DNA of 64,000 nt from Veillonellales bacterium (GCA_039680175.1 JBDKTO010000021.1:1-64000), one strand, 5' to 3'. Numbered from the stretch's first letter, positions 54,646 through 60,030 are shown. Notes: a model not told the origin generated them from the letters alone. Made by a program: numbers and translations.

Positions 54646-54674
54646 AAGGCCTGCCTTTCGGCAGGCCTTTTCAT
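54646..54674. terminator. Bidirectional terminator
   Basis: AAGGCCTGCC pairs with GGCAGGCCTT, with T-runs on both sides, between the SGNH gene and the first SPOCS gene. Confidence 0.9.
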
Positions 54675-55208
54675 TTATACTATATGGCATGGTGAAGCCG
54701 GGGCCGGCTTAGCCCGCAAAAACAGAGTGACATTTTTAAATATCTGCCGGCTGTTAACTGCCTGAACAAATACATCTTCGACGCAGCTATCAATGCACAA
54801 TAAATCGGTTACAGCGATGGTGGATTTGAGGACAATAAAAGTTGAAAAAGGAATGTCGAAATGAGCGGCATGAACGGATTGTTGACGTACAGCGGCTGTA
54901 TACACAATTTTTTGGTGAAGGATGCCTTCAACAATCAGTTTTTTACCGGTCAACGTAGTGCCTTCTTGATTTTTTGTACCCTCTGGCGTCTCAATAATTC
55001 GCTGGGAAATAATTCTTACTTGAATATAGACTTTATCAATAGATTCAATATCCGGTTTTTGGCAAGGCAGCGTCAGCACTTCCGGTATGGATAGCTCCGA
55101 CCAGTTTCTGTCGGTGGCAAGTGCCGGATCCACATCCTCAAAGGTAAGCGTCGCTGGATCGCATAACCCAATTATCTCTACCGCACTTTCAATACAATTA
55201 CAAATCAC
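54675..55208 (-). CDS. SPOCS-domain (DUF3794) protein of the spore-surface island
   Basis: 177 residues. The core of the SPOCS fold is visible: LPCQKPDIESIDKVYIQ (near 48), TGKKLIVEGILHQKIVYTA (near 87) and VHAAHFDIPFSTFIVL (near 111). The family includes SipL of Clostridioides, which joins spore coat layers. The start is GTG, 9 nt after AAGGAGG; no ATG fits the frame. It is the last gene of four minus-strand genes headed by the collagen-like gene. It is one of five paralogs here. Confidence 0.85.
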   Translation of the reverse strand: MICNCIESAVEIIGLCDPATLTFEDVDPALATDRNWSELSIPEVLTLPCQKPDIESIDKVYIQVRIISQRIIETPEGTKNQEGTTLTGKKLIVEGILHQKIVYTAAVRQQSVHAAHFDIPFSTFIVLKSTIAVTDLLCIDSCVEDVFVQAVNSRQIFKNVTLFLRAKPAPASPCHIV

Positions 55209-55226
55209 GCCTCATAACCTCCTTCC

Positions 55227-55883
55227 TCATGACTGGCAAACCAGCGGTGTAGCCTTAATAAACAAAGTAACGTTTGTAAACACCTGTCTATCGGTACAAC
55301 CCGCCACGAAAATATCTTCTATGCACATATCAATCTTGAATCTTCTGGTTAATGGATCATCCTCGTCTAGAATAATGAAAGCCGAAAACGGAACATCGAA
55401 ATGCATCGCGTGAACAGACTGCTCAGGAACTGCCGCCGTGTAAATGAATTTTTGTCTGAGAACTCCTTCGATTACTAATTTTTTGCCGGTAGTATATAAG
55501 CCTTCCGCATTGGTAATGGGTACGATTGTCTCAACACCATATGCATCTGTTCTGATGAGCACCGGCGTTCTCACTACCCTCTGGGAAATTAACTGCGACA
55601 CAATTGTAACGTCTAACAACTGCTCAATATCGGGCTTTTTCTCTGGAACACATAAAACTTCCGGAATGAATAACTGTACCCATCTTCTGTCGGTAGCAAG
55701 GGTCAACATGCTGGACACCGTAGCCTCCGGACATGTGCCTTTTACTCTCAATAACTGTTTGCACTCATGTTCCTCCGGTTTCGAAAAATGCATTTTACAG
55801 GCTGACGTACAGGTGACTGAACCCATATTGAGATTATCCGTCGTCTCACAGGATTCCGTTTGACTCTCAACGCAATAATCCAC
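55227..55883 (-). CDS. SPOCS-domain (DUF3794) protein, longer Cys-rich version
   Basis: 218 residues. The same core is present (VPEKKPDIEQLLDVTI near 90; TGKKLVIEGVLRQKFIYTA near 143; VHAMHFDVPFSAFIIL near 167), after an extra N-terminal Cys-containing region (ETTDNLNMGSVTCTSACKMH). The GTG start follows GGGAGGAAGAAA. It sits 18 bp from both neighbours and is probably co-transcribed. Likely role: assembly of spore coat or exosporium, as inference from the family and context. Confidence 0.85.
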   Translation of the reverse strand: MDYCVESQTESCETTDNLNMGSVTCTSACKMHFSKPEEHECKQLLRVKGTCPEATVSSMLTLATDRRWVQLFIPEVLCVPEKKPDIEQLLDVTIVSQLISQRVVRTPVLIRTDAYGVETIVPITNAEGLYTTGKKLVIEGVLRQKFIYTAAVPEQSVHAMHFDVPFSAFIILDEDDPLTRRFKIDMCIEDIFVAGCTDRQVFTNVTLFIKATPLVCQS

Positions 55884-55900
55884 TTTCTTCCCTCCTTCCC

Positions 55901-56473
55901 TTATAACTCGCTCAGGCATTCTGCTCCTGCCGTCGGTGCAGGTACTGCCTGAAGCAATAATGTCACATTCTTAAATATATACCGATCGCGGAATTCTTTG
56001 ATAAATAGATCTTCTACACAAACATTCACCTGAAAATTAATTAACTGAGTGTCCACTGAAGTTGTACCAATTGTAATAAATTGCGGAATTACAATATAAG
56101 CAGAAAATGGTACAACAAAATGCACTGAATGCACTGTTTGCTCGGGAACTTCTGCCGTGTAGGTTACAGTTTGACAGAGCTGCCCTTCGACAATCAATTT
56201 TCTTCCGGTTACAACAACCCCTGCGTAGTTGGTAATGAACTCAGTGCCAGTCACTGGGCTGCGCGGAGTTATGATTACTTTCTTTCTTACAATGTTTGCC
56301 GAAATATTCACTGAATTAATCTGCTCAATACAAGGCTTTTGACTGGGAATAATCAGCGTCTCCGGCACTGAAATTTCCGTCCAAAAGGGATTGAGGTTTA
56401 AATCAAATGCCTGAATATCGCAAAGACCGGCAATGTCAATACCAAACATATCGGCCTGACACCCATAACTCAT
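55901..56473 (-). CDS. SPOCS-domain (DUF3794) protein
   Basis: 190 residues with the paralogous core (IPSQKPCIEQINSVNIS near 46; TGRKLIVEGQLCQTVTYTA near 88; VHSVHFVVPFSAYIVI near 112). The ATG follows AAAGGAGGCTTTTTC. It is the second gene of the minus-strand block, about 40 bp after the collagen-like gene. The five paralogs differ mainly in their Cys content and in the loop between the two blocks. Confidence 0.86.
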   Translation of the reverse strand: MSYGCQADMFGIDIAGLCDIQAFDLNLNPFWTEISVPETLIIPSQKPCIEQINSVNISANIVRKKVIITPRSPVTGTEFITNYAGVVVTGRKLIVEGQLCQTVTYTAEVPEQTVHSVHFVVPFSAYIVIPQFITIGTTSVDTQLINFQVNVCVEDLFIKEFRDRYIFKNVTLLLQAVPAPTAGAECLSEL

Positions 56474-56515
56474 GAAAAAGCCTCCTTTCTTGAATTAGAA
56501 ATTACTTCACAATGG

Positions 56516-57817
56516 TTAAGACAAAAATACATCGTCGATATACCAAATACCGCCCAATAATGTCTCCCCTACAGGAGGAACAGTCAGTGGATTCACCTCC
56601 TCGGCAATAAATACAAGCGTCAACTGGAAGGCATCGCTGCACTTACATGGGTTCGGCGGATATTTACAGCAGGAATCCAGGAAGTAATAGGATTCAAAAT
56701 CATATCCTGTTACTTGAATAGGCGTAGTTGACGGGGTTACCGTTACTTGATTAGGCACGCCTTCCATAATGATTACAGAGGCAACAGCATCAGCCGGATT
56801 CAGTGTCCCGCTGCTGATTTGAGTGCGCACATCACCACGGAACACCAGCGCACTTGTACGCAAGCTAAAAGTGTTTGCCGCGCCGTTTTTCTGGTCATAT
56901 CTTGCTCCCCAGAAATTAAGCTGTGTGAAGAAAGAACGGTTGCGGCCGGAAAGCATCGACAAATCAATAAGCTGGGTCAGATATGCGTTCTGCCAAGTAC
57001 CCGGCAAAGCGGGATCTGTAGGATTCGGCACAAATACAGGCTGAAGCCGTGCAGAAGTGCGGCCGGTATGGGCGATACGCGTTAAGAAAGCTGAATCGAT
57101 TTCCGGTGACGGCGGCAACGGTGCAAGGCTTGCCCTTATTGCCAACCAGTTGCTCGTTAATATCGGACCTTCGAAGCTTCCGTCTTTAACTAAATTGCAT
57201 CTTATACCGCTTTCCCGCAAATCATCTTGAGGCCAACATGTTCCTTGAATACCAGGATGTCCGGGAGATCCAAGGCAAATCGGCGTACTGCTGCAGCCGG
57301 ACTGAACGGGAGCTGCCGGCGGCGGCTCTGGTGGTCCAGTACATATCTGTGTACAGTTACCACAGGACGAAACGGGAGGCGCTGTTGGTCCGGGAGATCC
57401 AGTGCATATCGGCGTGCGGTTACAGCAGAACTGAACTGGCGGCCCTGGCGGTCCGGGTGGTCCTGCGGGTCCGGGTGGTCCAGTTGAGCCAATTGGTCCC
57501 GGCGGTCCGGGTGGTCCCTGACAGCCAGTATCTCCCCTTGGCCCAGGAGGCCCTGCTGGGCCCGGATAGCCTGGAGGTCCCATTGGACCAGGGAATCCGT
57601 AATAGCCCGCATCGCCCTTTGGTCCGGGATAACCAGAGTATCCCCTAGGTCCGGGAGCACCATAACTGCCATTATCCTCCCTGGATCCGGAAGATTCAGG
57701 CAGCCCTGGAGGGCCGGCAACGCCCTGAATAACATAAGGAGCCGTCCCTGTGCATATATTAGCAAAGTTTTTTGCCGGCCGGGGACTGTTGTAATAATAC
57801 GATATATTACCTGACAT
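56516..57817 (-). CDS. Collagen-like spore-surface protein (BclA-type)
   Basis: 433 residues. A short N-terminal region (about 1-32) is followed by interrupted Gly-X-Y triplets (about 33-130, with many GPPGPPG), a Cys/Pro-rich stretch (about 130-205), and a C-terminal beta-rich domain (about 205-433, opening [16 protein letters not shown]). This layout resembles the exosporium filament proteins of Bacillus and Clostridium. The C-terminal domain is like a carbohydrate-binding or NTTRR-F1-type module, but this was not settled. The ATG follows AAAGGGGTGAGAAA. It heads the minus-strand SPOCS block. Confidence 0.9.
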
Positions 57818-57896
57818 TTTCTCACCCCTTTACTACATCGTATTCACTTTACAAAACAAAGTTACATAGTCGGATTCATATTTTTACAACAAAAAT

Positions 57897-57928
57897 TGCA
57901 AGCTAACGATTCACCCCATTAGCTTGCA
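57897..57928. repeat. Inverted repeat between the divergent spore-surface blocks
   Basis: TGCAAGCTAA pairs with TTAGCTTGCA around a 12-nt loop. It lies in the 221-bp divergent region and may be an operator or a hairpin in a leader. No confident promoter was identified. Confidence 0.5.
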
Positions 57929-58038
57929 GTATCCGGTACATAGGAGTCATAAATTGTCATCATAAACCAGTAACCTTTTTGCCGATAAAATAATAAGCTG
58001 ATACTAAAATAGATAATTAATATTCAGAGGTGATCATT

Positions 58039-58647
58039 TTGTCTGACCAGCAAATTGACTTCATCGGACTCACTCAACCGTCACGCTTTCCGCCTAATCT
58101 ATTGCCGGACTACTGCACCGAAACCTGTGAAACCGACAAACTATGTATTCCCTGCCAAAAGCCGGACATTTCCCAAATATTAAGCGTAAGTATTAATATA
58201 TCATTATCTTCTACCAAGGTGATCTGCACCCCCTGCGGTAAAAAACTGGTTATCGAGGCTGTCAAGCATCTAAAAATAATGTACATTGCGGCTGAACCCT
58301 GTGAAACCGTCCATACTGCCCATTTTTGTCTCCCACTCTGTATGTTTATCCTATTAAAGGATCCTCATCGTGAAGTAACGGATATCTGTACAGTAGTCGA
58401 ATATGTATCCATCAAACAGCTTGATTGCCGCTGCGTAGCTGTATCGGCATTAATCCTAGCCTGCGCTATCCTTAAGCCCTGCTGCCCTAGCGACCCGTGT
58501 GAACCCTGCTGTGATAACCACGAACACCATCATTGCCCAGCTCTCCACACCACCTGCGGCACCCCGCCGTATAAGACCGAGCTCTGCACTGTATGCCATA
58601 GCGAAAAAAAATACTCACCATCGTATACCTGCAGTACTGAATATTAA
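58039..58647 (+). CDS. SPOCS-domain (DUF3794) protein with Cys/His-rich tail
   Basis: 202 residues. The core reads IPCQKPDISQILSVSIN (near 37), CGKKLVIEAVKHLKIMYIA (near 70) and VHTAHFCLPLCMFILL (near 95). The last 60 residues are Cys- and His-rich (PCCPSDPCEPCCDNHEHHHC), a likely metal-binding or cross-linking tail. The TTG start follows AGAGGTGATC, which matches the 16S 3' end well; a GTG 9 nt upstream overlaps the site. It starts the plus-strand block of the island. Confidence 0.82.
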   Translation: MSDQQIDFIGLTQPSRFPPNLLPDYCTETCETDKLCIPCQKPDISQILSVSINISLSSTKVICTPCGKKLVIEAVKHLKIMYIAAEPCETVHTAHFCLPLCMFILLKDPHREVTDICTVVEYVSIKQLDCRCVAVSALILACAILKPCCPSDPCEPCCDNHEHHHCPALHTTCGTPPYKTELCTVCHSEKKYSPSYTCSTEY

Positions 58648-58725
58648 AAATGGTGCAAAATCCCAAATTTCTAGGAAAGAACTCAATTCACAAATATAAA
58701 CTGCCCCATATAGGAGGAAGGCTTT

Positions 58726-59445
58726 ATGAGTCATAAAATAAGAGCGTTTGTGAATGTGCACAACACATTTAAACTACCCGAGAATAAACCCGATATTGAG
58801 TTCATACTGCGGGCAGCAACCTTTCCGCACATAGAATATGCCTCTACTATTGATAAACGAGTAATTTTTAGGGGCTACCTGGATTTATGCATAGAGTATG
58901 CAGCTAAAACCGCTGACTGTTCCCAACTAGTCTACTTTGCCTGTTTTAAACTGCCCGTCAACTCCGGTGTTATAGAATATTGCCGGATAAAGGCCGATCG
59001 TAATGTCCAATTGAAAGTAAAAACTAAATACCTAAAAGTAACTGCTGTCGATTGCCGCTGTATTGACTGTGTAACCGTAGTCAATGTTATGGCTGTACAA
59101 TTCGCCAATCATTTTCATAACTTGCCTTCTCATATTTGTCTGCCTTATTTTTCACAACCCTTCTTTTCTTGCGGACCTACATTTTGCCAGGATATTACAT
59201 TAAATGACTGCCAACCAGACTGCCCGCCCTGCCATCTGGCCAAACCATGTGATACTTCATTAGATTGCTGCGAATCCCCGTCCTTCCTGTCCTGCGACTG
59301 CATGGAATCTGACCATTTACCAATCTCAGTTACCTACGAAAACACCCCTTCCACATATGCCTGCTGTGACTGCATGCCATGTTGCAAACCGTCTGAGCAT
59401 TACTATCAGGACTGCTGCTCCCGCAATATTTTCATCGGAACGTAA
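58726..59445 (+). CDS. Cys-rich divergent SPOCS-like protein
   Basis: 239 residues. It shares the LPENKPDIEFILRAATF opening of the paralogs, but the second block is diverged (QLVYFACFKLPVNSG). The C-terminal half is very rich in Cys (DCCESPSFLSCDC and ACCDCMPCCKPS among others), suited to disulfide cross-linking or metal binding. The ATG follows AGGAGGAAGGCTTT. It is 78 bp after the preceding SPOCS gene. Confidence 0.8.
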   Translation: MSHKIRAFVNVHNTFKLPENKPDIEFILRAATFPHIEYASTIDKRVIFRGYLDLCIEYAAKTADCSQLVYFACFKLPVNSGVIEYCRIKADRNVQLKVKTKYLKVTAVDCRCIDCVTVVNVMAVQFANHFHNLPSHICLPYFSQPFFSCGPTFCQDITLNDCQPDCPPCHLAKPCDTSLDCCESPSFLSCDCMESDHLPISVTYENTPSTYACCDCMPCCKPSEHYYQDCCSRNIFIGT

Positions 59446-59478
59446 TATCATAATAATACTGTATCGGAGGCTAAAAAT

Positions 59479-60030
59479 ATGCATTGTATCTATGAGGAAA
59501 ACTCAGTCGTTACCCCGCCTTTTCCAATTTCACTAACCAATAATACAACCGCAGAAATTGGAAAACTAACAATATGCAGACCTCTGCAGCAGTGTGGCTG
59601 TTTGATTGTAACCGCTGTGGTAAACTGGAGTGCAACCTTTACGCCTCCCGATGGCGTTAGCGCCACAGTAAGCACTGCCGGTTATGCCGATATAGTCATT
59701 GAACTTCTGTTTAATAACAATGTAATATACCGAGTATTCCAGACAGCGCTGCAAAAAGCCATTCCCCTGCCACCAGCATTATTCTCAAGTGCATCAACGA
59801 CCTGCGAAATTGCCCCGTTGCTGTATAGTTATCAAATGCCTTTCTGCTTCAATAGCTGCGGCTATTATGATATGATCGCCCTCCATGCTACCGCCAAGCT
59901 GGTTGCCCCTGTAGTAAGTACAGGGACAGCTGCAGCATCGGCAAATATTGGAGCCGTAACACTAATCGCCGAAGTTGTCAACATGCATAGAACGAAAGAG
60001 GATACAGCCGATGTCATAATAACCGAATAG
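59479..60030 (+). CDS. Unknown beta-rich protein of the spore-surface island
   Basis: 183 residues. It opens with a short acidic lead, has two Cys-containing segments (CRPLQQCGCLIVTAVVNWSA; CFNSCGYYDM), and the middle is rich in beta-type Val/Ile/Thr strands. A jelly-roll or TNF/C1q-like fold is possible, as in BclA C-terminal domains, but no clear match was found. The ATG follows CGGAGGCTAAAAAT. It is the last gene of the plus-strand block, 33 bp after the Cys-rich SPOCS-like gene. Confidence 0.72.
   Translation: MHCIYEENSVVTPPFPISLTNNTTAEIGKLTICRPLQQCGCLIVTAVVNWSATFTPPDGVSATVSTAGYADIVIELLFNNNVIYRVFQTALQKAIPLPPALFSSASTTCEIAPLLYSYQMPFCFNSCGYYDMIALHATAKLVAPVVSTGTAAASANIGAVTLIAEVVNMHRTKEDTADVIITE

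Follow-up and report, generated by a model that had tools for sequence, protein, structure and literature searches.

Analysis of a 64,000-nucleotide stretch of DNA from a Veillonellales bacterium (GCA_039680175.1 JBDKTO010000021.1:1-64000; hereafter the window) has identified an island in which five proteins of the SPOCS family, termed S1 to S5, are encoded around a collagen-like protein, BCL (Table 1). We conclude that this cassette follows a known plan, that of a Cys-rich base plus a collagen filament, which is here built on SPOCS subunits. A role at the spore surface is very likely, and we think it reasonably probable that the island encodes a module made late in sporulation for the outer spore surface, in which S1, S2 and S3 together form a socket for the collagen filament while S4 and S5 provide cross-linking. 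The known role of SPOCS is in coat morphogenesis, and most of what is known of the composition of the outer spore surface comes from C. difficile, C. sporogenes/botulinum and the B. cereus group. Our literature search found no paper combining DUF3794 and exosporium and, as far as that search shows, SPOCS proteins as the base of an exosporium or appendage have not been described. A cassette of five to six genes in fixed order that occurs in Bacilli, Clostridia and an LpxC-bearing lineage thereby names likely parts of another spore surface and predicts which surface proteins bind each other.

Composition of the SPOCS and collagen island

The original prediction, made from the sequence alone, had proposed five SPOCS proteins around a collagen-like protein, and a hidden Markov model search with the Pfam profile PF12673 (SipL, SPOCS) bears this out. 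All five proteins encoded between 54675 and 59445 score above the gathering cut-off of 23.6 bits (S1 46.0, S2 38.8, S3 32.8, S4 28.9 and S5 25.3). As the genome has just three other SPOCS genes, these five matches are not due to chance and family membership is confirmed. Each protein has one SPOCS domain and Pfam detected no LysM in S1-S5, so the full SipL architecture of three SPOCS domains and a C-terminal LysM in one chain is absent; lacking LysM, these proteins are not SipL-type linkers. The sequence blocks on which that prediction was based hold in part. The (C/E)xKPDI(E/S) block, assigned to all five, is exact as xxKPDIx in four with S3 reading SQKPCIE; GKKLVIEG does occur in four proteins, as variants (S1 GKKLIVEG, S2 GKKLVIEG, S3 GRKLIVEG, S4 GKKLVIEA); and VHxxHFxxPF, also assigned to four, is exact in S1-S3 with S4 ending ...CLPL. 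S5 has lost both of the latter blocks.

Cys content does not rise stepwise from one paralog to the next, as had been claimed, but falls into two classes without a graded series, with 7, 10 and 6 residues in S1, S2 and S3 versus 23 and 25 in S4 and S5. The 23 Cys of S4 (11% of its residues) are divided between the core (13) and a 55-residue tail (10), while the S5 tail of 111 residues holds 18 of that protein's 25 Cys plus 6 His. S5 homologs also adjoin the cassette in two further loci (L003 and L008) and in a genus that belongs to the window's class (hereafter the same-class genus), some members of which have beside S4 an S5 homolog of 515-635 amino acids that ends in 22-43 CKPHH repeats. The natural reading of the S4 and S5 tails would be cross-linking by disulfides or metal, and either chemistry fits; the suggestion that Cys-rich members are suited to cross-linking is supported. 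Repeat number varies between related genomes (L071 6401-8305 and L072 6859-8403), and a homolog of 635 amino acids reaches 64 Cys and 106 His.

The collagen feature of BclA is present in BCL, whose GXY region matches PF01391 (Pfam, E 1.2e-12), in agreement with the proposed BclA-like partner. BCL consists of a short N-terminus (MSGNISYY...), the GXY region and an undescribed C-terminal domain from about residue 196 to 433 that ends in WYIDDVFLS. In eight collagen proteins, from the window and seven other cassettes, the short N-terminus (mostly M[SA]GYIYTD) recurs together with a C-terminal domain some 230 residues long (CNLVxDGSFE ... YDFESY ... WYIDDV), at 36-46% identity. No Pfam family, including BclA_C (PF18573), was found in this C-terminal domain in any of the eight, and comparison with Protein Data Bank (PDB) sequences gave no match beyond collagen. 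Its sequence pattern appears to resemble that of carbohydrate-binding jelly rolls. The Bacillus exosporium leader motif was not seen on inspection of the BCL N-terminus. The second half of the BCL collagen region (residues ~130-190) is degenerate, with three Cys-containing repeats unseen in the orthologs.

Table 1. Features of the island; positions are counted from the first nucleotide of the window
Feature	Coordinates	Strand	Description
S1	54675..55208	-	Stand-alone SPOCS protein of 177 aa, encoded at the end of the BCL-S3-S2-S1 operon
S2	55227..55883	-	Stand-alone SPOCS protein, ~218 aa; longest open reading frame reaches 55919
S3	55901..56473	-	Stand-alone SPOCS protein, 190 aa
BCL	56516..57817	-	Collagen-like protein, 433 aa; PF01391
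Terminator-like hairpin	57897..57928	-	13 pairs then ATTTTTG, z -3.4; precedes BCL by 80 nt
Candidate sigma-K promoter of S4	57965..57992	+	AACC-N15-GATAAAATA, one mismatch
S4	58039..58647	+	Cys-rich SPOCS protein with Cys/His-rich tail; divergent from BCL
S5	58726..59445	+	Divergent SPOCS protein, 239 aa
BETA	59479..60030	+	183 aa; TNF/C1q-like jelly-roll model; cassette membership by adjacency only

Conservation and expression signals of the cassette

When 84,980 species genomes were searched with an alignment of the S family, 25 loci were recovered. The layout in which S4 diverges from collagen-S3-S2-S1 is found in seven of them (L003-L007, L010 and L011, with S3 and S2 fused in L010), which belong to Bacillaceae, Marinisporobacter, Tepidibacter, Clostridium aestuarii and others, several clostridial families among them. 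Orthologs of S1 occur in 16 other loci at 45-63% identity. The family is present in all eight sampled members of the same-class genus (genomes of 5-6 Mb), where the loci that were read keep the S3-S2-S1 order with S4 and/or S5 homologs nearby. The gene context also points to the spore surface: one cassette (L009) adjoins collagen proteins carrying a true BclA_C (PF18573; 1.3e-30 and 6.8e-37) and another (L069) adjoins collagen and glycosyltransferase genes. Strong matches were obtained in only 8 of 398 sampled genomes of the phylum, so the cassette is rare and patchy there.

A tree of 75 SPOCS proteins resolves separate groups for S2 (99%), S3 (99%), S4 (97%, a clade of 11 rows) and S1 (91%; support by Shimodaira-Hasegawa-like approximate likelihood ratio test), each of which contains the protein from the window. 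These separate clades indicate that S1, S2 and S3 diverged before the cassette spread and have been kept together. As judged from the tree, each of S1, S2 and S3 is an ancient orthologous lineage conserved in its own right, and the three form one unit in monoderm and diderm hosts, which replaces the earlier notion of an expanded paralog set and makes the diderm nature of the present host incidental. Horizontal transfer is a possibility: by pairwise identity the window is more similar to Bacillus NTK074B (63% for both S1 and S3) than to members of its own class (45-54%), while a concatenated tree joins it with its own class at support that is not firm (77/82). The record of L004 is labelled Lutibacter sp. 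B2 (Bacteroidota), a label that looks wrong, and its cassette groups tightly with that of Marinisporobacter (Bacillota).

SPOCS domains are also found at the ends of longer proteins. They end long DUF11, Ig-type or cadherin-like proteins that lie beside stand-alone SPOCS genes (L013 and L017), and they begin TolB-like beta-propeller proteins that lie beside a stand-alone SPOCS gene (L004 13563-15026 and L010 5600-7030). In a genome of the Clostridium family (L091 2990-12792), two proteins of 1,628-1,629 amino acids end in SPOCS and several stand-alone SPOCS genes adjoin them.

Cassette gene starts were searched for the sigma-K pattern MACM-N15-17-CATANNNTA, and 70 further genes from these loci served as controls. 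Matches without mismatch precede 13 of 32 cassette gene starts versus 1 of 70 controls (Fisher p 4e-7), and allowing one mismatch gives 26 of 32 versus 9 of 70 (Fisher p 2e-11), p values that are optimistic since related loci are not fully independent. Patterns for sigma-E, sigma-G and sigma-A show no such enrichment upstream of cassette genes. The cassette is thus probably under sigma-K, that is late mother-cell, control. The -10 element of the candidate S4 promoter lies 46 nt ahead of the start of the longest open reading frame (ORF). Promoters of the sigma-70 type were rejected as candidates, as they are no commoner in the island than in shuffled sequence.

Comparison with known spore surfaces and proposed assembly of the SPOCS subunits

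The appendage locus of C. taeniosporum comprises CRD1 (564), HYPO1, HYPO2 (158), HYPO3 (160), CRD2 (413), P29a (269), GP85 (collagen), P29b (269) and CL2 (collagen) (PMC5749712; lengths in parentheses). It is matched in gene order and lengths by a C. weizhouense locus (L014) with ORFs of 556, 161, 166, 160, 413, 269, 289, 268 and 486 amino acids. In L014 the equivalents of HYPO2-HYPO3-CRD2 are three consecutive SPOCS genes, with CRD2 composed of DUF11-DUF11-SPOCS; DUF11 is present and the GP85 equivalent carries BclA_C. By way of L014, the C. taeniosporum locus resembles the island in having collagen-like protein(s) beside three consecutive SPOCS genes and, less firmly, in its sigma-K promoters; the former feature is seen in the window, and the latter at its relatives and weakly in the window. 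The window differs in that it lacks BclA_C and DUF11 (Pfam found no P29-type subunit in its island) and has another collagen C-terminal domain, with the Cys-rich S4 and S5 instead.

Other systems share parts of this plan. In the CsxA/CsxB-BclA exosporium of C. sporogenes a Cys-rich gene also lies beside collagen-like genes, and a predicted disulfide-linked base bears a collagen nap (PMC7333573, PMC4942563). The likeness noted here is one of gene layout; CsxA is a single 299-amino-acid protein and the cassette has five SPOCS proteins. A PF12673 search of the Clostridium sample gave no clear CsxA-like ORF, and a 313-amino-acid S4-like ORF (L090) was rejected as CsxA because it lacks the Cys content and gene context of that protein. 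The Bacillus BclA-ExsFA/BxpB-ExsY exosporium likewise combines a Cys-rich base, a beta-rich jelly-roll protein (in the island, the model of BETA) and a collagen filament, but its base is ExsY/CotY rather than SPOCS proteins and BCL has neither its BclA_C nor its BclA leader. In the F-ENA system, an anchor with DUF11 and a CsxA-like domain plugs the appendage into the spore lattice; for this domain, a heterotrimer with two copies of CsxA has been predicted in another clostridium (PMC11952670). In the window's island neither an F-ENA nor a DUF4183 protein was identified.

From these features we propose that the mother cell would make the module late and build with it part of the outer spore surface, namely the base of either the exosporium or an appendage. 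S1, S2 and S3 would be obligate, distinct subunits that most likely co-assemble with one another, a 1:1:1 heterotrimer being the probable form, to give a lattice or other basal unit. Onto this base the collagen-like protein, necessarily a trimer in its collagen region, would dock by its short N-terminus with the C-terminal domain facing outwards. S4 and S5 would join the same layer and their Cys- (and His-) rich tails would cross-link it through disulfides and/or bound metal.

Several lines of evidence together favor an S1-S2-S3 heterotrimer, and none proves it. First, S3 and S2 are fused in single ORFs in L010 (S3 259 and S2 257 bits) and L012 (S3 128 and S2 198 bits). Second, SipL of C. difficile carries three SPOCS domains and a C-terminal LysM in one chain (PMC6436350), and SipL-like ORFs of ~525 amino acids with three SPOCS matches occur in most of 39 sampled Clostridium-family genomes. 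Third is the heterotrimer prediction for the CsxA-like domain described above. The AlphaFold2 model of S3 is all-beta, with a predicted local distance difference test (pLDDT) score of 89.8 and a predicted template modeling score of 0.80. The SPOCS alignment had no match among PDB sequences. Overall, we regard a heteromeric S1-S2-S3 base as an evenly balanced proposition.

Several observations weigh against the socket model. The S3 model had no hit in the PDB below E 0.001, the best template modeling (TM) score being <0.3. CotE, a SPOCS protein that nets as a homotrimer into a meshwork (PMC11980541) and is grouped in published work with SpoVID and SipL (PMC10867305), offered another route to a trimer. 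This route is unsupported here since profile comparison (hhalign) of CotE gave probabilities of 0.3% with S1-S3 and 0.1% with S4; the genome has no CotE (PF10628). The sigma-K match of S4 taken alone is not significant (p 0.17), with support coming from the same element at orthologs, and the collagen operon of the window has no good match (3 mismatches). Cassettes of the same-class genus gave no match to the C-terminal domain of BCL type, so the collagen partner is not universal. Finally, the cassette is not essential for sporulation since it is absent from two other sampled genomes of the same family, which have only three core SPOCS genes.

The most serious alternative, which we consider less probable, is that S1-S3 are each homo-oligomeric and occupy separate sublayers or interfaces, their linkage reflecting co-regulation and not a heteromeric complex. 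The homotrimer of CotE (PMC11980541) fits this, as do stand-alone SPOCS genes in numbers other than three (Halanaerobacter L013, G140 and the clostridial cluster L091); the presence of one each of S3, S2 and S1 in nearly all cassettes and the two S3-S2 fusions speak for the heteromer instead. Improbable in our view is a role of S1-S5 as coat-morphogenetic linkers that tie the coat to SpoIVA, with no part in an exosporium or appendage. They share a Pfam family and, in sets of three units, the SPOCS domain with SipL/SpoVID, and the SPOCS domain of SpoVID binds coat proteins (PMC10867305). However, the cassette consists of separate subunits, spreading over three chains what SipL has in one, without the LysM by which SipL binds SpoIVA (PMC6436350), and with a collagen partner and Cys-rich members; it is dispensable in relatives, and distinct SipL-like SPOCS genes are present at other sites in the genome. 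A metal-loaded spore matrix, in which the S4 and S5 tails mainly store or bind metal and no filament base is formed, would suit the Cys/His content of the S5 tail and the up to 43 CKPHH repeats of its homologs, but we judge it quite unlikely as neither S1-S3 nor the collagen protein has tails of this kind and disulfides account just as well for the Cys of S4 and S5, as for CsxA (PMC7333573). That these are proteins of the vegetative cell surface with no relation to spores is scarcely credible: in relatives, the fusion of SPOCS to beta-propeller or Ig-type domains could hint at surface display in general, but SPOCS is tied to sporulation, relatives have sigma-K promoters and some collagen partners carry BclA_C.

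Returning to the socket model, the fusion proteins beside stand-alone SPOCS genes suggest a more general plug-and-socket use. Tentatively, SPOCS trios could be a general heteromeric socket of the outer spore surface, in monoderms as in diderms, with stand-alone SPOCS proteins making the lattice into which proteins plug that end or begin in SPOCS (DUF11, Ig-type, cadherin-like, beta-propeller) or bind the trio (collagen). If true, such a socket would unify C. taeniosporum ribbons, the CsxA-type exosporium and the present cassette.

Host genome, BETA and minor features

The host genome (4.08 Mb, 121 contigs) encodes the outer-membrane marker LpxC (1.5e-98) and the spore-formation protein SpoIVA (3.8e-250), matches which identify a lipopolysaccharide-type diderm spore former, as predicted. 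The three SPOCS proteins outside the window are encoded in L001 2534-4216 (contig C83) and L002 2773-3489 (contig C56). One has, by eye, an SH3-like end instead of LysM, one an Asp/His/Cys-rich insert and one ECKPECKP repeats; a gene that looks YabG-like by eye lies near the first two. In a related genome (G001) the flanking acyl-CoA ligase has an ortholog (85%) with other genes beside it; the island is thus an accessory locus, and its site is variable.

The S1 start is a GTG preceded by AAGGAGGTT, and the most likely S2 start was revised to the GTG at 55883 preceded by GGAGG. For S4, the longest ORF begins at GTG 58030, and the likely start was revised to TTG 58039 behind AGAGGTGAT on the basis of this ribosome-binding site and of an alignment in which orthologs begin there. 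The hairpin upstream of BCL may block minus-strand read-through from the ligase operon at right. Another strong terminator hairpin (10 pairs, window 54646-54669) lies between S1 and a converging GDSL gene and is probably shared by the two.

BETA has no match in Pfam or NCBIfam. Its model (pLDDT 75.7) is a jelly roll, and the closest shapes are TNF-like lectins and C1q heads (target-normalised TM up to 0.55, E ~5e-3). Grouping BETA with the SPOCS proteins, or as one family with the BCL C-terminal domain, was rejected on comparison; from its model, a BxpB-like anchor is possible. Two same-family genomes each carry relatives of BETA in the form of three domains in tandem, at a locus apart from their SPOCS genes. 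There, the tandem jelly rolls (L044 5270-6878 and L045 5475-7148) lie near glycosyltransferase-like and coat-like genes, a candidate for a second undescribed spore-surface locus.

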